NCBI GenBank assembly: GCA_021773815.1
Contig: JAJFJS010000035.1
Span: 62,001-126,000 of the forward strand
Source: Gammaproteobacteria bacterium
GTDB lineage: Bacteria; Pseudomonadota; Gammaproteobacteria; Steroidobacterales; GCA-2729495
Reading direction: 5' to 3'
Length of the DNA stretch: 64,000 bases
Of the stretch, positions 1-7,743 are shown in pieces. The position numbers were made by a program, and so were the translations under genes. Numbering within the stretch: the first letter of the stretch is position 1; every line of letters begins with the position of its first letter. The notes under the pieces are model-generated. The model ran no database searches. It saw only the letters and a program-made list of their open reading frames with translations, and was not told the origin of the DNA.

Positions 1-1391
1 TTGAAACCGGAAACGATGATCATGTCTTTCTTGCGATCGACGATCCTGAAATATCCCTGTTCGTCGACGACGGCAATATCACCCGTCCGAAAGAAACCGT
101 CATCGGTCATCACGGCGGCCGTCGCCTCGCGGTTGTTCCAGTAACCGGACATGACCTGCGGTCCACGGACGCACAGCTCGCCGGCTTCGCCGATCGGCAT
201 CTCGCTACCGCTCTCGTCCCGCAGTGAAACATCGGTGCTCGGCAGCGGCAGCCCGATGCTGCCGCGAAACTCCGTCAGGCCCATCGGATTGGAGGTGATG
301 ACCGGCGATGTCTCGGACAGGCCGTACCCCTCGGTGATAACCATTCCGGTGACATCAAACCATTGCCGTGCCGTATCGTCGAGCACGGCCATGCCGCCCG
401 CCGAAACGATCTTCAGATGGGAGAAATCGACACCGGCAAAGTCCGGATAATTGACCAGGCTCTGGTACAGCGTATTGACGCCGGTAATCGCCGTGAACGG
501 ATATTTTTTCATCTCGCGAACGAACGCCGCTGTGTCGCGCGGATCGGTGATCAGCAGGTTGTGCCCGCCGTGGCTCAGGTAGCACAGGCAGTTACACATC
601 AATGCATAGACGTGATACAGCGGCAGCGCCGTGACGATCAGCTCGCGACCCTCCTCGATGCCCGCCGCAAACCACGCATTGAGCTGACGCACGTTGGCGA
701 CGAGGTTGCGATGGTGGAGCATCGCCCCCTTGGCCCGGCCCGTCGTGCCGCCGGTGTATTGCAGAACGGCCAGGTCCGCACCGGTCATCCGCTCCTCGCT
801 AAACCCGTCCGGCGCGGTCTCGAGCACCTGCCGAAATCCGACGGCACCGGCGATTCGCCAGGCCGGCACCCTGCGCTTGATATAGCGCACGGCGAAATTG
901 ACGATTTGCCGCCGCGGGAACGGCAGCAGGTCGCCGATGTCCGTGACGATGACGCGATCCACGGCGGTTTCACCGATGACATCGGCCAGCGTGGCGGCGC
1001 TCGTCGAGGCGATAACGATCGCCCGCGCGCCCGAATCGATCAGCTGATACTCAAGTTCCCGCGGCGTATACAGCGGGTTCACGTTGACGATGACCAGACC
1101 GGCCCGCAGCGCCCCGAACAACGCGACCGGATACTGCAGCAGGTTCGGCATCATGATCGCGATGCGATCGCCTCGCGAGAGGCGGCCCTCGGTCTGCAGC
1201 CAGGCCGCGAAGCGCTTCGTCAGGTCATCGAGTTCGGCGTAGGTCAGCGACGCACCGAGGTTCGAATAGGCAATCCGGTCGGGAAACCGACGACAGGCGC
1301 TGCCGAACAGATCCAGCAGCGATTCGGCCGGATCCAGGTCGAGCTCGTGCGGCACGCCCTCGGTATATTGCTTGAGCCAGATTTTTTCCAT
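1..1391 (-). CDS. fadD: Long-chain fatty acid-CoA ligase, C-terminus beyond window
   Basis: Activates long-chain fatty acids to acyl-CoA through an acyl-adenylate, feeding beta-oxidation; a peripheral inner-membrane enzyme in E. coli. The 463 visible residues begin MEKIWLKQY and contain MPNLLQYPVALFG, NVNPLYTPREL, the AMP-binding motif YTGGTTGRAKGA (about residues 210-221) and YGLSETSP, all close to E. coli FadD (561 aa). The frame is still open at position 1 in RKKDMIIVSGF, so roughly the last 90 residues lie outside the window. The ATG at 1389-1391 is divergent from the mevalonate genes. The family call is firm; FadD is preferred over other AMP-binding ligases because of the near-identical N-terminal blocks. 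Confidence 0.93.
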   Translation of the reverse strand, partial: MEKIWLKQYTEGVPHELDLDPAESLLDLFGSACRRFPDRIAYSNLGASLTYAELDDLTKRFAAWLQTEGRLSRGDRIAIMMPNLLQYPVALFGALRAGLVIVNVNPLYTPRELEYQLIDSGARAIVIASTSAATLADVIGETAVDRVIVTDIGDLLPFPRRQIVNFAVRYIKRRVPAWRIAGAVGFRQVLETAPDGFSEERMTGADLAVLQYTGGTTGRAKGAMLHHRNLVANVRQLNAWFAAGIEEGRELIVTALPLYHVYALMCNCLCYLSHGGHNLLITDPRDTAAFVREMKKYPFTAITGVNTLYQSLVNYPDFAGVDFSHLKIVSAGGMAVLDDTARQWFDVTGMVITEGYGLSETSPVITSNPMGLTEFRGSIGLPLPSTDVSLRDESGSEMPIGEAGELCVRGPQVMSGYWNNREATAAVMTDDGFFRTGDIAVVDEQGYFRIVDRKKDMIIVSGF

Positions 1392-1534
1392 GCACCGTCC
1401 GGGTTCGGCTACTCAACAGGCTGCTGGTCGGGTTATTGTCGCATCGCGACGGGGCCTTTGCACCCGTCCCGTCACGGCCGGCGGTGCACTGTTGCACGAA
1501 TCCCCTTGGCAGCTGACGACGAATGCTGCTAGCG

Positions 1535-1691
1535 TGCATTATTCATGAAGGCGGCGCCGACTGCGGCCAATCGCATACTGAGTCGAGCCTCGTGACAACA
1601 CGAGAACTTAACAGTCTGTATATTCGGCGGGCGCCTGTCTCGGTTGTGCCGGCCCGTGGCGGCACAACGGCGATCCTTCATGAATAATGCA
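1535..1691. repeat. 157-bp element bounded by 17-bp perfect inverted repeats
   Basis: The left arm TGCATTATTCATGAAGG (1535-1551) is the exact reverse complement of the right arm at 1675-1691. Between them sit two further perfect stems: CTCGTG/CACGAG with loop ACAA (1589-1604), and GTTGTGCCG/CGGCACAAC (1643-1651 with 1660-1668). The layout resembles a small MITE/REP-like element or a structured leader. I see no clear target-site duplication at the ends and no second copy in the window. Confidence 0.6.
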
Positions 1692-1704
1692 GGCGAAGGT
1701 CCAT

Positions 1705-1747
1705 GCCGCCTTGTTGCGGCCATTGAAAGCACCTTATATAAAGGTGC
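1705..1747 (+). promoter_or_regulatory. Two hairpins in the leader of the HMGR fusion gene
   Basis: GCCGC/GCGGC with a 6-base loop (1705-1720) is followed by GCACCTT/AAGGTGC around ATATA (1729-1747). The second stem is perfect and ends 27 bases before the GTG start. It could be an operator dyad or an RNA structure near the ribosome site; the sequence does not decide. Confidence 0.4.
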
Positions 1748-1774
1748 CTGAACACCAGCGTGACGGAGTGAAAA

Positions 1775-4018
1775 GTGGCCGGATCGAGAATTCCTCGTTT
1801 TTACAAGATGAGCGTCGACGAGCGTGTCCGCGCGGTCCGCGACCAGGGGCTGCTGACGGACCGGGATCTCGACAGCCTGCTGTCCGGCGAAACGACACTG
1901 GGCGTCAACGCCGCCGACAAGATGATCGAGAACGTCATCGGCGTGCTCGGCCTGCCGATCGGCCTCGGACTGAATTTCCTGATCAACAGCAAGGAATACG
2001 TCATTCCGCTGGTCGTCGAGGAACCATCGATCGTCGCGGCGCTGAGCGCCGCCGCCAAACTGTCGCGCGGCTCGGGCGGATTCACCACCACCTCGACCGA
2101 TCCGATCCTGATCGGACAGATCCAGATCATCGATCCGCCAAACATGACCCGCGCCCGGGCAGCCGTGCTGGAACACAAGCAGGAAATACTCGATCTGGCC
2201 AACAGTTTCCACCCGCGCATGGTGGCGCGCGGCGGCGGCGCCGTGGATATCGAGATTGCCAGCTACCCGTTGAAATCGACGAACGGCGAGATGCTCGTCG
2301 TGCACCTGCTCGTGGACACGCGCGATGCGATGGGCGCCAACCTGGTCAACGGCATGTGCGAGGGCGTGGCACCGCTGATCGAAACGATCACCGAGGGCAA
2401 CGTGTTCCTGCGCATCCTGTCGAACCTGACCGATCGCGCCCTGGCAACCGCCGAAGTCACGCTCACGGTCGAGCAACTGGCGGGCAAGGGCTATGACGGG
2501 AAGCGCGTTCGTGACGGCATCATCATCGCCGCGGACTTCGCGCACGTCGACCCGTATCGTGCCGCGACCCACAATAAAGGCGTCATGAACGGCATCGACG
2601 CCGTCGCGCTGGCCACCGGCAATGACTGGCGGGCCATTGAGGCGGGCGCGCACGCATATGCCGCGCGGCACGGCCGTTACGGATCGCTGACGCAGTGGTC
2701 GAAGGACGCCGACGGCAATCTGCGCGGGCGCATCGAACTGCCGATCAAGGTCGGCATCGTGGGCGCACCGCTCGAATCGAATCCGGGCGTGGCCATGAAT
2801 CTCAGGATGATGGGCGTCGAATCGGCAACGGAACTCGCCGAAGTCATGGCCGCGGTCGGCCTGGCGCAGAATTTTGCAGCGCTCAAGGCGCTGACGACAG
2901 AGGGCATTCAGACCGGACACATGACACTGCATGCACGCAGCGTCGTCAAGGCCGCCGGCGCCCCGCCGGAACTGTTCGACGAGACGCTGGAACAACTGGT
3001 CCGCAGTGGCGACATCAAGGTCTGGAAGGCCGAGGAAATCCTCGGCCAGCTGCGCGACGCGGATGCGACGGAGCCGCAGGTAGCCGATACGGAAACCGGC
3101 GTCGGTTTCGGCAAGGTCATCCTGCTCGGCGAACATGCCGTCGTATACGGTCGGCATGCGATCGCCTGCCCGCTGCCGCTGACGATGCGTGCCGTCGTCG
3201 AGGATCACGACAAGGGCGTCGAACTGCTGATTCCCCGCTGGGGCATCGAGTACCAGCTCGCCAAGCCCCCCGAGCAACGGCGCTCGTTCGAGAAGGCCGC
3301 CGGCCTGATCATGGATCGGCTCGGCCTCGGTAACCGGGGCATGCGCATCGAGGTTTTTCCCGACGTGCCGCGCGGCATGGGCATGGGCGGCTCGGCGGCG
3401 CTGGCAGTGGCCATTATTCGCGCGCTGGATCTGCATTACCGGCTCGGACTGACGGATGAGGAAGTCAACGCGCTGGCCTACCAGTCGGAGAAAGTCGCGC
3501 ATGGCCAGCCGAGCGGTATCGACAACACGCTGGCGACTTACGGCAAGCCGCTCGTCTACCGCAAGGGAACCCCGCCCCTGGTCGAGGAGCTGCAAATCCC
3601 GGTACCGCTGTCGCTCGTCATCGGCATGACCCGCAACGAGGGATTGACGGCCCGGACGGTACTCAATGTGCGTGAGGCGCGGGACCGGCAACCGAAACTC
3701 TACGAAAAGATCTTCGACGACATCGATGCACTCGTGCGGCAGGGCATTACGGCCGTGCAAACCAACGATATCCGCACCCTCGGCGAACTGATGAACGTTT
3801 GTCAGGGACTGCTCAACGCGCTGCAGGTCTCGACGCCGGAGCTCGAACGACTGATCGGCGTCGCGCGCCGGGCCGGGGCCCTCGGCGCCAAGCTGACCGG
3901 TGGTGGCGGCGGCGGAGCGGTCATCGCGTTGTGCGACGACAATGCGGACGAGGTGCAGGCCGCAATGGAACGTCAGGGTTTCCAGGCGATGACGGTCGTC
4001 GTCGGCAACAAACAATGA
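1775..4018 (+). CDS. Fused HMG-CoA reductase (class II) - mevalonate kinase
   Basis: A 747-residue protein that would catalyse two mevalonate-pathway steps: HMG-CoA to mevalonate, then mevalonate to 5-phosphomevalonate. Residues about 1-425 are a bacterial-type HMG-CoA reductase with ENVIG (near 52), DAMGANLVNGM (near 183), HNKGVMNG (the lysine motif), GNDWRA (catalytic Asp) and GHMTLHAR (catalytic His near 386). Residues about 444-747 are a GHMP kinase with LLGEHAVVYG (near 449), PRGMGMGGSAA (near 531), PSGIDN (near 578) and LTGGGGGGA (near 707). The linker is rich in D, E and T. A GTG start with GGAG six bases upstream was chosen. Both halves keep their catalytic residues, so two activities are likely. 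The stop overlaps the IPP isomerase start (ATGA). I know of thiolase-HMGR fusions (MvaE) but not of this pairing as a standard architecture. Confidence 0.93.
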   Translation: MAGSRIPRFYKMSVDERVRAVRDQGLLTDRDLDSLLSGETTLGVNAADKMIENVIGVLGLPIGLGLNFLINSKEYVIPLVVEEPSIVAALSAAAKLSRGSGGFTTTSTDPILIGQIQIIDPPNMTRARAAVLEHKQEILDLANSFHPRMVARGGGAVDIEIASYPLKSTNGEMLVVHLLVDTRDAMGANLVNGMCEGVAPLIETITEGNVFLRILSNLTDRALATAEVTLTVEQLAGKGYDGKRVRDGIIIAADFAHVDPYRAATHNKGVMNGIDAVALATGNDWRAIEAGAHAYAARHGRYGSLTQWSKDADGNLRGRIELPIKVGIVGAPLESNPGVAMNLRMMGVESATELAEVMAAVGLAQNFAALKALTTEGIQTGHMTLHARSVVKAAGAPPELFDETLEQLVRSGDIKVWKAEEILGQLRDADATEPQVADTETGVGFGKVILLGEHAVVYGRHAIACPLPLTMRAVVEDHDKGVELLIPRWGIEYQLAKPPEQRRSFEKAAGLIMDRLGLGNRGMRIEVFPDVPRGMGMGGSAALAVAIIRALDLHYRLGLTDEEVNALAYQSEKVAHGQPSGIDNTLATYGKPLVYRKGTPPLVEELQIPVPLSLVIGMTRNEGLTARTVLNVREARDRQPKLYEKIFDDIDALVRQGITAVQTNDIRTLGELMNVCQGLLNALQVSTPELERLIGVARRAGALGAKLTGGGGGGAVIALCDDNADEVQAAMERQGFQAMTVVVGNKQ

Positions 4019-4587
4019 GTGTCGCGCGCCAGTCCGTATCGAGCCCGACCGAATCGCTGATCCTCGTCGACGCCCACGATCGGGACATCGGCTTTCGCAG
4101 CAAGGCAGAGTGTCACGCAGGCGACGGCTTGTTGCATCGGGCCTTCTCGGTCTTCCTGTTCAACCGGGACGGTCAGGTGTTGCTGCAGCAGCGCAGCGCA
4201 CAGAAGCCACTGTGGCCGCTGTACTGGTCCAACAGTTGCTGCAGTCACCCGCGGCAGTCGGAATCGATCGAGGATGCCGGGCGACGACGAATTCGCGAGG
4301 AACTGCATCTCGACTGCGACGTGTGGTTTCTGTACAAGTTCCAGTATCAGGCGACCTATGGCGACGCCGGCAGCGAACACGAGTTCTGCCACGTGTTTGC
4401 CGGGATCGCCGACGGCGCGGTCTCGGCCCACCCGGATGAGATCGTCGACTGGCGCTACGTCGATCCGGACACGCTGACGCGGGAGATTGCGGCCGACGGC
4501 GACCGCTTCACGCCGTGGCTCAAGATGGAGTGGGAGCGCATCCGCGCGGACTTTCTGGACGACATCCTCGCCGGTCGGTCCCCCTAG
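4015..4587 (+). CDS. idi: Isopentenyl-diphosphate delta-isomerase, type I
   Basis: Interconverts isopentenyl and dimethylallyl diphosphate, the step that supplies both C5 units after the mevalonate pathway. The 190-residue Nudix-fold protein has the type I signatures SNSCCSHP (catalytic Cys near residue 74) and EHEFCHVF (catalytic Glu near 120), plus a Nudix-like segment around RRIREEL. The ATG at 4015 overlaps the TGA of the HMGR-mevalonate kinase gene in an ATGA, so the two are translationally coupled. This strongly supports one isoprenoid operon. The remaining pathway genes (HMG-CoA synthase, phosphomevalonate kinase, decarboxylase) are not in the window. Confidence 0.95.
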   Translation: MSVARQSVSSPTESLILVDAHDRDIGFRSKAECHAGDGLLHRAFSVFLFNRDGQVLLQQRSAQKPLWPLYWSNSCCSHPRQSESIEDAGRRRIREELHLDCDVWFLYKFQYQATYGDAGSEHEFCHVFAGIADGAVSAHPDEIVDWRYVDPDTLTREIAADGDRFTPWLKMEWERIRADFLDDILAGRSP

Positions 4588-4637: not shown

Positions 4638-5450
4638 GTGGCCAACGTCATCATCACGGGCAGTAGCAAGGGTATCGGGCGCGGGCTGGCCGAGGCGTTC
4701 GTGCGCCGCGGCCACCGGGTCGTCATCTCGGCACGCGGTCAGGCGGATATCGACCGGACCGTCGCCGAACTCAACGCTATCGGCCCCGGCACGGCGACCG
4801 GTGCAGTCTGCGACGTTGCCGCCAAAGACCAGATCCAGGAGCTGTGGGATCGCGGCAGCGCCGAACTCGGCCCGATTGATTTCTGGATCAATAACGCCGG
4901 CACGGCCGATGCCCGTCACGAGTTGCACGACACACCGGAGGCTATCGTGCACACGCTGATCGACAGTAACCTCAAGGGCACGATCTTCGGTTCGCAGGTC
5001 GCGATTAACGGTTTTCGCCAACAGGGTTCGGGTGCGCTGTACAACATGCTCGGCGGCAGCTTCGACGGCAAGCGACTGACGCCAAACATGTCAGTCTACA
5101 GTTCGACGAAGGCGGCCATCTGGATACTGACGAAGTATCTGCTGATGGAGAACCGGGATCGGGGCATCATGATCGGCATGATCAGTCCCGGCATGTTGCT
5201 GTCCGACAACTGGTTCTCCGAACAGAAGAAGATGACGCCCGAAGATTGGCGGAAGATCCGACCGATTCTCAATATTCTGTGCGACGACGTCGAGACGGCC
5301 GCGCCGTGGCTGACCGACGAGATATTGCGCAACGATCGCTACGGCCATCGCATCGCCTGGCTGACGACGGGCAAGATGCTGCGCCGTTTTTTCGCCGCGA
5401 AGGTGCTCGGTCGCAAACGCGACCTGTTCAGCCGTTACGGACTCGACTGA
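4638..5450 (+). CDS. Short-chain dehydrogenase/reductase
   Basis: A 270-residue NAD(P)-dependent oxidoreductase of the classical SDR type. The cofactor motif TGSSKGIG lies at residues 7-14, NNAG near 88, and the catalytic Tyr/Lys pair in YSSTK near 152-156. The GTG start at 4638 was chosen because GGAGA sits 7 bases upstream. It begins 50 bases after idi on the same strand and probably shares its transcript, but nothing in the sequence identifies the substrate. A role in isoprenoid or quinone metabolism is only suggested by position. Confidence 0.85.
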   Translation: MANVIITGSSKGIGRGLAEAFVRRGHRVVISARGQADIDRTVAELNAIGPGTATGAVCDVAAKDQIQELWDRGSAELGPIDFWINNAGTADARHELHDTPEAIVHTLIDSNLKGTIFGSQVAINGFRQQGSGALYNMLGGSFDGKRLTPNMSVYSSTKAAIWILTKYLLMENRDRGIMIGMISPGMLLSDNWFSEQKKMTPEDWRKIRPILNILCDDVETAAPWLTDEILRNDRYGHRIAWLTTGKMLRRFFAAKVLGRKRDLFSRYGLD

Positions 5451-5556: not shown

Positions 5557-6003
5557 TTACCGGACCTTGATATCGATGGCCTTGGGCTTCTCGACCTCGG
5601 CCTTGGGGATATGAATCTTCAGCACGCCATCCCGGCTCTCCGCATGGATCCCGCCCTCGTTGGCATCGGCCGGCAGGCTGAAGCTGCGCGCAAAGCTGCC
5701 GTAGAACGATTCGATACGGTGCTGCCTTTCATTCTCCTCGGTATTCTCGATCCGGCGCTCACCCTTGATCGTAATCACGCCGTCATGCACCGAAACCTCG
5801 ACGTCTTCCTTCGGGACCTCGGGCAACTCGGCCTTGATCAGGTATTCCTTGTCCGTCTCGGAAATATTGGCCACGGGGCGCCACGCCGCCGTGTCACGTT
5901 CACTGCCCTCGTTACCGGACCGGAAGCGCCGCGCCGGCAGCGCGCCGTAACGGCTGAACAGGTCATCGAATTCCCGGAACGGGCTCCAGTTTACTAAAGT
6001 CAT
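5557..6003 (-). CDS. Small heat shock protein, Hsp20/alpha-crystallin family
   Basis: An ATP-independent holdase chaperone that binds unfolding proteins under stress. The 148-residue product has a short N-terminal arm (NWSPFREFDDLF), an alpha-crystallin domain from about 45 to 140 (ISETDKEYLIKAELP, VHDGVITIKGER, DGVLKIHIPKA), and a short charged tail. The second of two nearby ATGs (6001-6003) is preferred because AGGAGG is 7 bases upstream of it but only 1 base from the first ATG (6007-6009). A sigma-32-type promoter lies upstream and a terminator downstream, so the gene is probably monocistronic and heat-induced. Confidence 0.95.
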   Translation of the reverse strand: MTLVNWSPFREFDDLFSRYGALPARRFRSGNEGSERDTAAWRPVANISETDKEYLIKAELPEVPKEDVEVSVHDGVITIKGERRIENTEENERQHRIESFYGSFARSFSLPADANEGGIHAESRDGVLKIHIPKAEVEKPKAIDIKVR

Positions 6004-6058
6004 TTCCATTCCTCCTCAAGGTCTGAAACTTCCGGACGCGTGCGCGCCCTGTATCCAG

Positions 6059-6102: not shown

Positions 6103-7257
6103 TCAGTCGAGCGCATCCAGCGCGTCACGCAACGCATCAATCAGGTCATCGGCGTCCTCGAGCCCGACTGACAAGCGCACCAGGCCGTCCGTAATGCCGG
6201 CCCGCGCGCGCTGCTCCGGTTCGACGTCCGAATGGGTCATGCTGGCCGGATGGGTGACGAGAGACTCCACGGAACCGAGGCTCTCGGCGAGGCTCCACAG
6301 TTCGAGCGAATCCATCAGCGCCTTGCCGGACCGCACGCCGCCGGCGACCTCGAACCAGACCATGGCACCGAACCCGGACGCCTGCGAGACCGCCAGTTCA
6401 TGCTGCGGAAAGGATTTGAGCCCCGGATACCCGACGCGTTCGACGGCCGGGTGGTCGGTAAGAAAGGTCGCAATCCGCAGCGCCGTCTCGGACTGCCGGT
6501 CCATGCGCACCGACAGCGTTTTGCTGCCCTGTAATGTCAGCCAGGCTACCTGCGGCGACATGATGATGCCTGACGCATTCTGCACGAAGCGCAATGCCTC
6601 GTCTTGCTCGGCGGTGCGCGCGACGACTGCGCCGCCCACCGTCGCATTGTGCCCGTCGAAATACTTCGTCGTACTGTGTATGACAAGGTCCGCCCCCAGC
6701 TCCAGCGGCCGCTGAAAGTACGGTGTCAGGAACGTGTTGTCGACGGCATGCGGGATCCCGGCGGCGCGCGCGATGTCTGATACGGCGCGAATATCCGTCA
6801 GCTTCAGCGTTGGATTACCCGGCGTCTCGGTCACGATCAGCTTCGTGTTCGGGCGCAGGCTCCGGCGCACGTTGTCCGCGTCGGACGTGTCGACGAAACT
6901 GAATTCGACGCCGAAGCGGGCGAATATCTGGTTGCACAGTCGATAGGTGCCACCGTAGATCACGTCGGACAGTACGGCATGATCGCCGGCGTTCAGGAAT
7001 GCCGTCAGCACGCAGTTGATTGCGGCCATGCCCGTCGCATAGCAGGTGCAGTCGGCGCCCCCCTCGAGGTCGGCGATGCGCAGCTCCAGGGCCCGAACGG
7101 TCGGATTGCCGGATCGCGAGTATGAGTACCCTTTCGCCATGTACTCGTCGACCGAATCCTGCACATAGGCCGTCGTCTGGTAGATCGGCGTCAGGATCGA
7201 CCCCGTCACCGGGTCGGGCGTCACGCCGGCATGGATCTGCCTGGAACTGAACCGCAT
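6103..7257 (-). CDS. Cystathionine gamma-synthase/lyase family PLP enzyme
   Basis: A trans-sulfuration enzyme acting on C-S or C-O bonds of homoserine derivatives or cystathionine. The 384-residue protein matches the family length (E. coli MetB is 386). Visible motifs are YSRSGNPTVRALE (PLP and substrate binding), VDNTFLTP, the PLP-lysine motif HSTTKYFDGH (Lys near 199), and the C-terminal ESLVTHPASMTH with RLSVGLED. The ATG at 7257 follows GAGGCGAG at a workable distance. Whether it is a gamma-synthase, gamma-lyase or methionine gamma-lyase cannot be read from the motifs. It is not linked to other methionine genes here. Confidence 0.9.
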   Translation of the reverse strand: MRFSSRQIHAGVTPDPVTGSILTPIYQTTAYVQDSVDEYMAKGYSYSRSGNPTVRALELRIADLEGGADCTCYATGMAAINCVLTAFLNAGDHAVLSDVIYGGTYRLCNQIFARFGVEFSFVDTSDADNVRRSLRPNTKLIVTETPGNPTLKLTDIRAVSDIARAAGIPHAVDNTFLTPYFQRPLELGADLVIHSTTKYFDGHNATVGGAVVARTAEQDEALRFVQNASGIIMSPQVAWLTLQGSKTLSVRMDRQSETALRIATFLTDHPAVERVGYPGLKSFPQHELAVSQASGFGAMVWFEVAGGVRSGKALMDSLELWSLAESLGSVESLVTHPASMTHSDVEPEQRARAGITDGLVRLSVGLEDADDLIDALRDALDALD

Positions 7258-7410
7258 CTGTCTCGCCTCTGCTTCTGCTGGTGGTCGATCGTCTAAGAAC
7301 GCGATTCTATCCTGAATGCGACGGGTGAATGCAGCGAACGGGCGCATCCGGTTGCGATGACGGACGGATTGCCGGATCATCTGCAGCAACAACGAATCGG
7401 GAGACGCCCA

Positions 7411-7743
7411 ATGACCGACAGCGCATGGCAGGTTTTTTCCCTGGACGAACTCATGGCGAAGGTCGTCGGTACCGAGCCGCGTTTCTACGAGTTCCTGCGC
7501 GTACCGGCCCTGAGTTCGGCAATCTATCGCCTGCCCGCCGGCGCCAAAGACATGCAGGCGCCGCATCTCGAGGACGAGGTCTATGTCGTCATCGAGGGTC
7601 GCGCGCGGCTCAGGATCGACGGCAAGGACCACGACATTCAGCGCGGCTCGATTCTGTATGTCCGCGCCACCGCCGAGCACTCGTTTTTCGATATCGAAGA
7701 AGACCTGACAGTGCTGGCCTTCTTCGGCGCGACGAATCCGTAA
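7411..7743 (+). CDS. Small cupin-domain protein
   Basis: A 110-residue single-domain cupin. Metal-ligand candidates lie in PHLEDEVYVVIEG (first cupin motif, His near 51) and in RATAEHSFFDI (second motif, His near 91). The ATG at 7411 is preferred over an upstream one because GGGAG lies 7 bases before it. The fold is shared by dioxygenases, isomerases and sugar-binding proteins, so no reaction is assigned. It is convergent with the acyl-CoA dehydrogenase gene, 6 bases away. Confidence 0.85.
   Translation: MTDSAWQVFSLDELMAKVVGTEPRFYEFLRVPALSSAIYRLPAGAKDMQAPHLEDEVYVVIEGRARLRIDGKDHDIQRGSILYVRATAEHSFFDIEEDLTVLAFFGATNP

Follow-up and report, generated by a model that had tools for sequence, protein, structure and literature searches.

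Does a single reading frame at this locus encode two consecutive enzymes of the mevalonate pathway, and, if so, how would such a joined enzyme work? In the window, by which we mean the whole 64,000-nucleotide stretch of DNA that was analysed, a gene at 1775-4018 (+) runs from a GTG start to a TGA stop over 747 codons, and the ORF listing and translation contain no internal stop. Pfam assigned HMG-CoA_red (PF00368) to residues 14-387 of the protein (E 2.6e-105; 352.9 bits against a cut-off of 27), GHMP_kinases_N to residues 506-589 (E 5.7e-18) and GHMP_kinases_C to residues 659-734 (E 2.4e-17). No other Pfam domain was found, and the thiolase domain of an MvaE-type fusion is absent. The NCBIfam models agree, with TIGR00532 matching the reductase half at 404.9 bits (cut-off 259.95) and TIGR00549, mevalonate kinase, matching residues 446-719 at 245.1 bits (cut-off 163.05). 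The original prediction of HMG-CoA reductase (HMGR) and mevalonate kinase (MvK) within one 747-residue frame was thus borne out by the ORF, Pfam and NCBIfam, and the key motifs that it named as intact in both halves were all found in the translation. We interpret the protein as a bifunctional enzyme that performs two consecutive biosynthetic mevalonate steps at separate, complete sites joined by a flexible linker, on what is probably the sole route to IPP, and we give this reading a probability of about 0.88. Within it, both activities, the choice of cofactor, the absence of tunnelling and essentiality are what we infer.

The GTG is a plausible start codon, since a putative ribosome-binding site, GGAG, can be read at 1765-1768 (+), ending 6 bases before it, and since conservation begins upstream of the first in-frame ATG: residues 5, 7 and 9 are at least 90% conserved across 43 aligned proteins, and all precede Met12. 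On the opposite strand, an open frame of 828 codons (1529-4015, -) spans nearly all of the fusion gene. It has no Pfam match and we rejected it as a real gene; it is probably a GC-driven shadow frame.

The reductase half comprises residues 1-427 (1775-3055, +) and aligns with Pseudomonas mevalonii HMGR over residues 3-427. Its scores exceed the PF00368 and TIGR00532 cut-offs, and the Glu, Lys, Asp and flap His of class II HMGR are kept and align with those of the P. mevalonii enzyme. The closest solved reductases by sequence are those of P. mevalonii and Delftia acidovorans, and when the AlphaFold model was searched by fold, P. mevalonii entries came first for this half (PmHMGR 9dcp, E 1.6e-42). 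Near full-length alignment, fold and the E/K/D/H set are common to the fusion and the solved class II enzymes (P. mevalonii 1qax/9dcp, D. acidovorans 6dio, Streptococcus pneumoniae 5wpj), whereas the fusion adds a C-terminal mevalonate kinase and has a helix reading HPRMVAR where that of P. mevalonii starts with D. The kinase half, residues 442-747 (3098-4015, +), passes the TIGR00549 cut-off and its GHMP motifs are retained across relatives. Its closest solved kinases by sequence are the Leishmania major and Methanosarcina mazei MvK, and in the fold search it matched L. major MvK (2hfu) at E 2.1e-22. It shares fold and motif residues with the GHMP mevalonate kinases of both organisms (2hfs and 6mde) but, unlike them, has no free N-terminus and is tethered to HMGR.

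We aligned the window protein with those of 84 loci, giving 85 rows, two pairs of which are identical in each half; L050, L077 and L080 were left out by a coverage filter and L001, L083 and L084 as copies of the window. The same residue occupies reductase positions E83, K268, D284 and H382 and kinase positions K447, E453, S540 and D583 in 85/85 fused rows. We take these residues to be catalytic, as in the respective families. A Glu/Lys/Asp/His catalytic set, quoted for class I HMGR and FcrA in a passage of PMC11948995, agrees with the residues of the reductase half. The identity of 42 other aligned fusions to the window protein ranges from 51 to 82%.

The cofactor helix, HPRMVAR (residues 146-152; 2210-2230, +), bears on which dinucleotide the reductase half would use. 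The rule of Miller and Kung, as quoted in a passage of PMC13370337, reads Dx(V/L)xxxL as NADH-type and (H/Y)xSxxxR as NADPH-type, and the same source passage describes a third, 'undefined' group of HMGRs that fits neither motif. Among the fused rows, H146 and R152 are each present in 84/85, while the NADH-type ends, D at 146 and L at 152, occur in 0/85. At position 3 of the helix the window has R; the residue is K, R or N in 74/85 rows and the S of the published NADPH motif in 1/85. The Asp at P. mevalonii residue 146 aligns with His146 of the window, and among the five class II reductases without a fusion that were compared in the class sample, four have D and one has A at the first helix position. 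We had also considered the conserved Asp158 as the counterpart of the P. mevalonii cofactor residue, and rejected it, as P. mevalonii HMGR has this same Asp at its own residue 158. By sequence, then, the NADH motif is missing from the fused reductases, which carry both ends of the NADPH motif. We predict that the reductase half uses NADPH, contrary to the 'NAD, degradative' name of its best model, a prediction that is only partly supported because helix position 3 is R rather than S. In Ruegeria pomeroyi HMGR, replacement of a single cofactor-site Asp (D154K) is reported to have given access to NADPH (PMC12292504). The change in the cofactor helix makes for a clear prediction on NADPH use.

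Between the halves, the C-terminal HMGR helices of the flap region (residues 378-429; 2906-3061, +) include His382, and the kinase is attached at their end. We presume from class II HMGRs in general that this C-terminal element moves as a flap during catalysis. The C-terminal helix of class I HMGR is also described as mobile in catalysis in a passage of PMC11948995, and a flap appears in a passage of PMC13370337 as well. The linker proper, residues 430-438 (3062-3088, +), is the sole stretch with pLDDT below 50 in the AlphaFold model of the whole fusion, which has a mean pLDDT of 83.1 and a pTM of 0.55. Among relatives it is hypervariable: the junction between window columns 424 and 444 measures 16 to 63 residues without a visible sequence pattern (86 rows, including one window copy). 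Since the junction is hypervariable, the linker of low pLDDT and the pTM modest, the two enzymes look like separate bodies joined by a flexible string in the model, which is of a monomer, so that an interface formed solely in an oligomer would escape it.

We propose that the N-terminal class II HMGR would convert HMG-CoA to mevalonate, probably with NADPH, and free the product into solution, and that the C-terminal GHMP kinase, tethered at equal concentration, would phosphorylate it with ATP. The tether would be flexible and would start where the mobile C-terminal flap of the reductase ends. The likely gain would be a fixed 1:1 stoichiometry, co-expression and proximity of the two enzymes, without a substrate tunnel; IPP isomerase would be the next protein translated. 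Control of the mevalonate pathway is classically exerted at HMGR and MvK. The original prediction had the fusion bypass kinase control; any escape from feedback would be a matter of its own, determined by the kinase half. The M. mazei kinase is described as feedback-resistant in the abstract of PMC5817203; by analogy, feedback resistance of the kinase half itself is plausible, and it would be owed to this likeness and not to the fusion.

A type I isopentenyl-diphosphate isomerase of 190 aa (4015-4587, +) follows, as the original prediction had it. It begins at 4015 within the stop of the fusion gene (ATGA overlap), so that translational coupling of the two is likely. Next comes a short-chain dehydrogenase (4638-5450, +), and a similar gene lies 3' of the isomerase in L004-L008. 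By eye, we noted three other neighbours: a frame of 555 residues that looks like an AMP-dependent acyl-CoA ligase, at 1-1391 (-) and extending upstream of the window, which is divergent from the fusion gene; a small heat-shock (Hsp20-like) protein at 5557-6009 (-); and a cystathionine gamma-synthase-like PLP enzyme at 6103-7680 (-).

The remainder of the pathway was sought in the source genome, a 3.87 Mb draft of 149 contigs that is 98.95% complete and in which the window corresponds to C78:62001-126000. A PF00288 profile search (E 0.001) gave three matches, namely the fusion and two genes on contig C149. One of these is a diphosphomevalonate decarboxylase (TIGR01240, 232.1 bits; cut-off 171.35) and the other is phosphomevalonate-kinase-like, with TIGR01220 as its best model at 91.7 bits, under the cut-off of 165.7. 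The pair adjoins a divergent HMG-CoA synthase, over the Pfam but under the NCBIfam cut-off, and a farnesyl diphosphate synthase. The set HMGS, HMGR, MvK, PMK and MDD is therefore present, the PMK and HMGS assignments being below the NCBIfam cut-offs. The MEP markers IspG and IspH had 0 matches in this 98.95% complete genome (as controls, IspG was matched in 9/14 genomes and IspH in 10/14). Because the other pathway genes are present and neither IspG nor IspH is matched, the biosynthetic mevalonate pathway is probably the only IPP route of this genome, and isoprenoid synthesis is the likely role of the fusion.

How far the architecture extends was assessed with a whole-protein scan of a species-genome collection, from which we analysed the best 80 of at least 567 relatives, under a ranking that favours fused ones. 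Both halves lie in a single open frame in 80/80 of these loci, with L050, L077 and L080 incomplete or partly covered. Isolates among them include Wenzhouxiangella sediminis, Dyella dinghuensis, Rhodanobacter lindaniclasticus and Marinobacter gelidimuriae; MAG carriers are labelled Calditrichaeota/Calditrichota, Balneolaceae/Balneolota, Melioribacteraceae, Planctomycetota, Myxococcales and Nakamurella, where single labels may be binning errors. The mevalonate route had been called unusual in gammaproteobacteria, which holds for the class, where MvK exceeds the cut-off in 26/369 sampled genomes, but not for the window's order, where it does so in 149/246. In the order sample, the frame around the MvK match is 700 residues or longer in 140/149 cases, a length that by itself is no proof of the partner. 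The other nine frames measure 334-692 residues, and the one examined (L124) ends at a contig edge and still has a reductase tail. In the class sample, the ten top-scoring MvK matches (236-256 bits) belong to HMGR-MvK fusions: nine lie in frames of 748-797 with an HMGR match, and G181 has a 390-residue frame with a weak HMGR tail (22.7 bits, below cut-off), apparently broken off at the contig end. The other 16 score at most 178; the frame measures 322-386 residues in 12 of them and 739-767 in the remaining four, where MvK is joined to a different partner.

PF00368 matches are more numerous in the class sample (73/369, of which 72 are over cut-off). We rejected the reading of all of them as mevalonate-pathway HMGR: 17 of the 29 loci L089-L117 have no match to the window's HMGR at the search thresholds used, and DAMGAN is missing in 5 of 6 loci inspected. 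In bacteria, homologues of class I HMGR may in fact be reductases of fatty acyl-CoA, according to a passage of PMC11948995. Spread of the fusion on plasmids was likewise rejected, as 38 plasmid records matched and none reached 80% query cover; the 20 of these 38 that were listed match essentially the HMGR part.

Among 50 of the 80 carrier genomes, IspG has no match in 43, is over cut-off in six and present as broken, below-cut-off pieces in one (L036). By this count the mevalonate pathway is not the sole IPP route in every carrier of the fusion. In the L036 genome, which also holds a fusion operon, IspG lies in four pieces at G636:C13:44063-45228, two of them with an in-frame stop; these pieces may represent a decaying MEP gene or assembly errors.

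In relatives, the fusion gene is usually preceded by genes for the decarboxylase and then the phosphomevalonate kinase, and followed by that for the isomerase. The preceding pair is found in 50/72 and the following isomerase in 64/76 loci with enough flank; the position filter behind these counts is strict and overlooks L055 and L077, although their genes are visible. The upstream pair is absent at the locus in the window and in its nearer relatives L002, L004-L012 and L022, and the operon was apparently broken up in the window's clade. Distances calculated for the two halves correlate with r 0.85 (n=84, omitting L110, which is identical to L022), a value reached in 0/1000 permutations. We calculated a tree for each half, both of them quick trees with long-branch warnings and few outside rows. 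In the reductase tree, all fused rows fall on one side against five reductases without a kinase fusion (>100 bits; support 88), and in the kinase tree on one side against 20 kinases not fused to HMGR (>40 bits, best row per locus; support 92), some of which come from HMG-CoA synthase fusions and some of which may be another GHMP kinase of their locus. These results show that the halves descended together, with one shared history, and they are compatible with a single fusion event, though no proof of one. Most rows that bear labels of other phyla belong, in the reductase tree, to a set of 11 (support 87) that also contains two members of the window's class; the Nakamurella row is placed outside that set, and the kinase tree gives no resolution in this part. 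Marinobacter gelidimuriae, whose genome has IspG, clusters in both trees with a Wenzhouxiangella and a Lysobacterales MAG, a placement suggestive of transfer.

Could the long frame be an artefact, in which a lost stop or a frameshift merged neighbouring genes during sequencing or assembly? The origin of the window in a 149-contig draft speaks for this, and nothing further does. A frameshift hidden between the domains, the danger named in the original prediction, is contradicted by the same fusion in independent assemblies and named isolates, and the counts of single open frames among the best loci and of long frames in the order point the same way. We therefore rejected an artefact, which we regard as barely conceivable. 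A reductase half that runs backwards, degrading mevalonate as in P. mevalonii, would fit the word 'degradative' in the name of TIGR00532, its best NCBIfam model, as well as the P. mevalonii and D. acidovorans enzymes being its closest solved structures and P. mevalonii leading the fold matches. Against it stand the mevalonate kinase fused to it, the overlapping IPP isomerase gene, the pathway genes elsewhere in the genome, the lack of an IspG or IspH match and the replacement of the NADH-type helix ends D and L by H and R. The name itself is uninformative on function, because a Listeria record among the listed plasmid matches bears the same product name, yet Listeria is described as making IDP primarily via the MEV pathway (PMC13001223, passage). 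Degradation, rejected on genome context, appears highly improbable.

The original prediction had mevalonate handed directly between the sites; such transfer is possible but finds no support in these results. The fusion could channel, either by mevalonate moving from site to site in an oligomer or by coupling of the HMGR flap motion to the kinase; the kinase does sit directly behind the C-terminal helices by which HMGRs close their active site, a role we presume for the flap, and the architecture has been kept despite the large divergence of the 42 proteins. The hypervariable length and sequence of the linker, its disorder at 430-438 and a pTM of just 0.55 in the monomer model count against channelling, which we consider quite unlikely. 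A broader proposal, that an undescribed pathway branch has moved as a unit into several phyla, with an NADPH-switched class II HMGR and a flap-hung kinase whose capture of mevalonate is kinetically coupled to flap opening, strikes us as unlikely. We retain the reading of two complete enzymes on a flexible linker.

Other isoprenoid enzymes are also joined in nature. Enterococcus faecalis MvaE combines acetoacetyl-CoA thiolase with HMGR (PMC13001223, passage), but its partner acts two steps upstream, whereas the partner in the window is the kinase directly downstream in the pathway. IspDF, said in a passage of the same source to be common, belongs to the MEP pathway and joins non-consecutive steps, unlike the HMGR-MvK fusion. 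In the text of PMC13001223 'fusion' occurs once, for IspDF, and 'fused' does not occur; 'fused' and 'mevalonate kinase' are absent from the text of PMC13370337, on bacterial HMGR diversity; and a passage of PMC7691419 reports the mevalonate pathway as specific to Wenzhouxiangella relative to Marinicella, with no fusion in that passage. The original prediction had left room for the architecture being widespread and already characterised. Widespread it is, and a description of it was not found in the open-access literature, among the titles and abstract openings of the matches listed. The HMGR-MvK fusion is a widespread and apparently undescribed bifunctional joining of known enzymes, and represents no new kind of chemistry. 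As a natural fusion that has been retained, it offers a ready-made test of what covalent linkage does to flux, intermediate leakage and feedback. Under a product name like 'hydroxymethylglutaryl-CoA reductase, degradative' the kinase would go unnoticed, and surveys that seek a separate MvK gene may score carriers as incomplete.

Two further kinds of fusion were met in the same class. At L139:1366-3582 (-), L143:193-2463 (+) and L147:202-2502 (+), HMG-CoA synthase is fused to a mevalonate-kinase-like GHMP kinase. L151 has a similar frame, the Pfam evidence covering the other three. These proteins measure 739-767 aa, and IspG had no match in the four genomes. On their domain content they constitute a second, non-consecutive mevalonate-pathway fusion, of which gene-name surveys could miss either part. 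At L158:7715-10234 (+), the same gene as L099:1291-3831, an HMGR-family domain without DAMGAN (class I-like) is joined to an APH-family phosphotransferase. The genome has IspG and no TIGR00549 match at E 1e-30. The genes that follow it, up to 15705, encode CDP-alcohol phosphatidyltransferase/CarS-like, formyltransferase-like, AMP-binding/hydrolase and UbiA-like proteins. This gene is possibly an independent fusion of an HMGR-family protein with a kinase and, by analogy with FcrA as described in a passage of PMC11948995, possibly an acyl-CoA reductase joined to an alcohol kinase for an unusual lipid.
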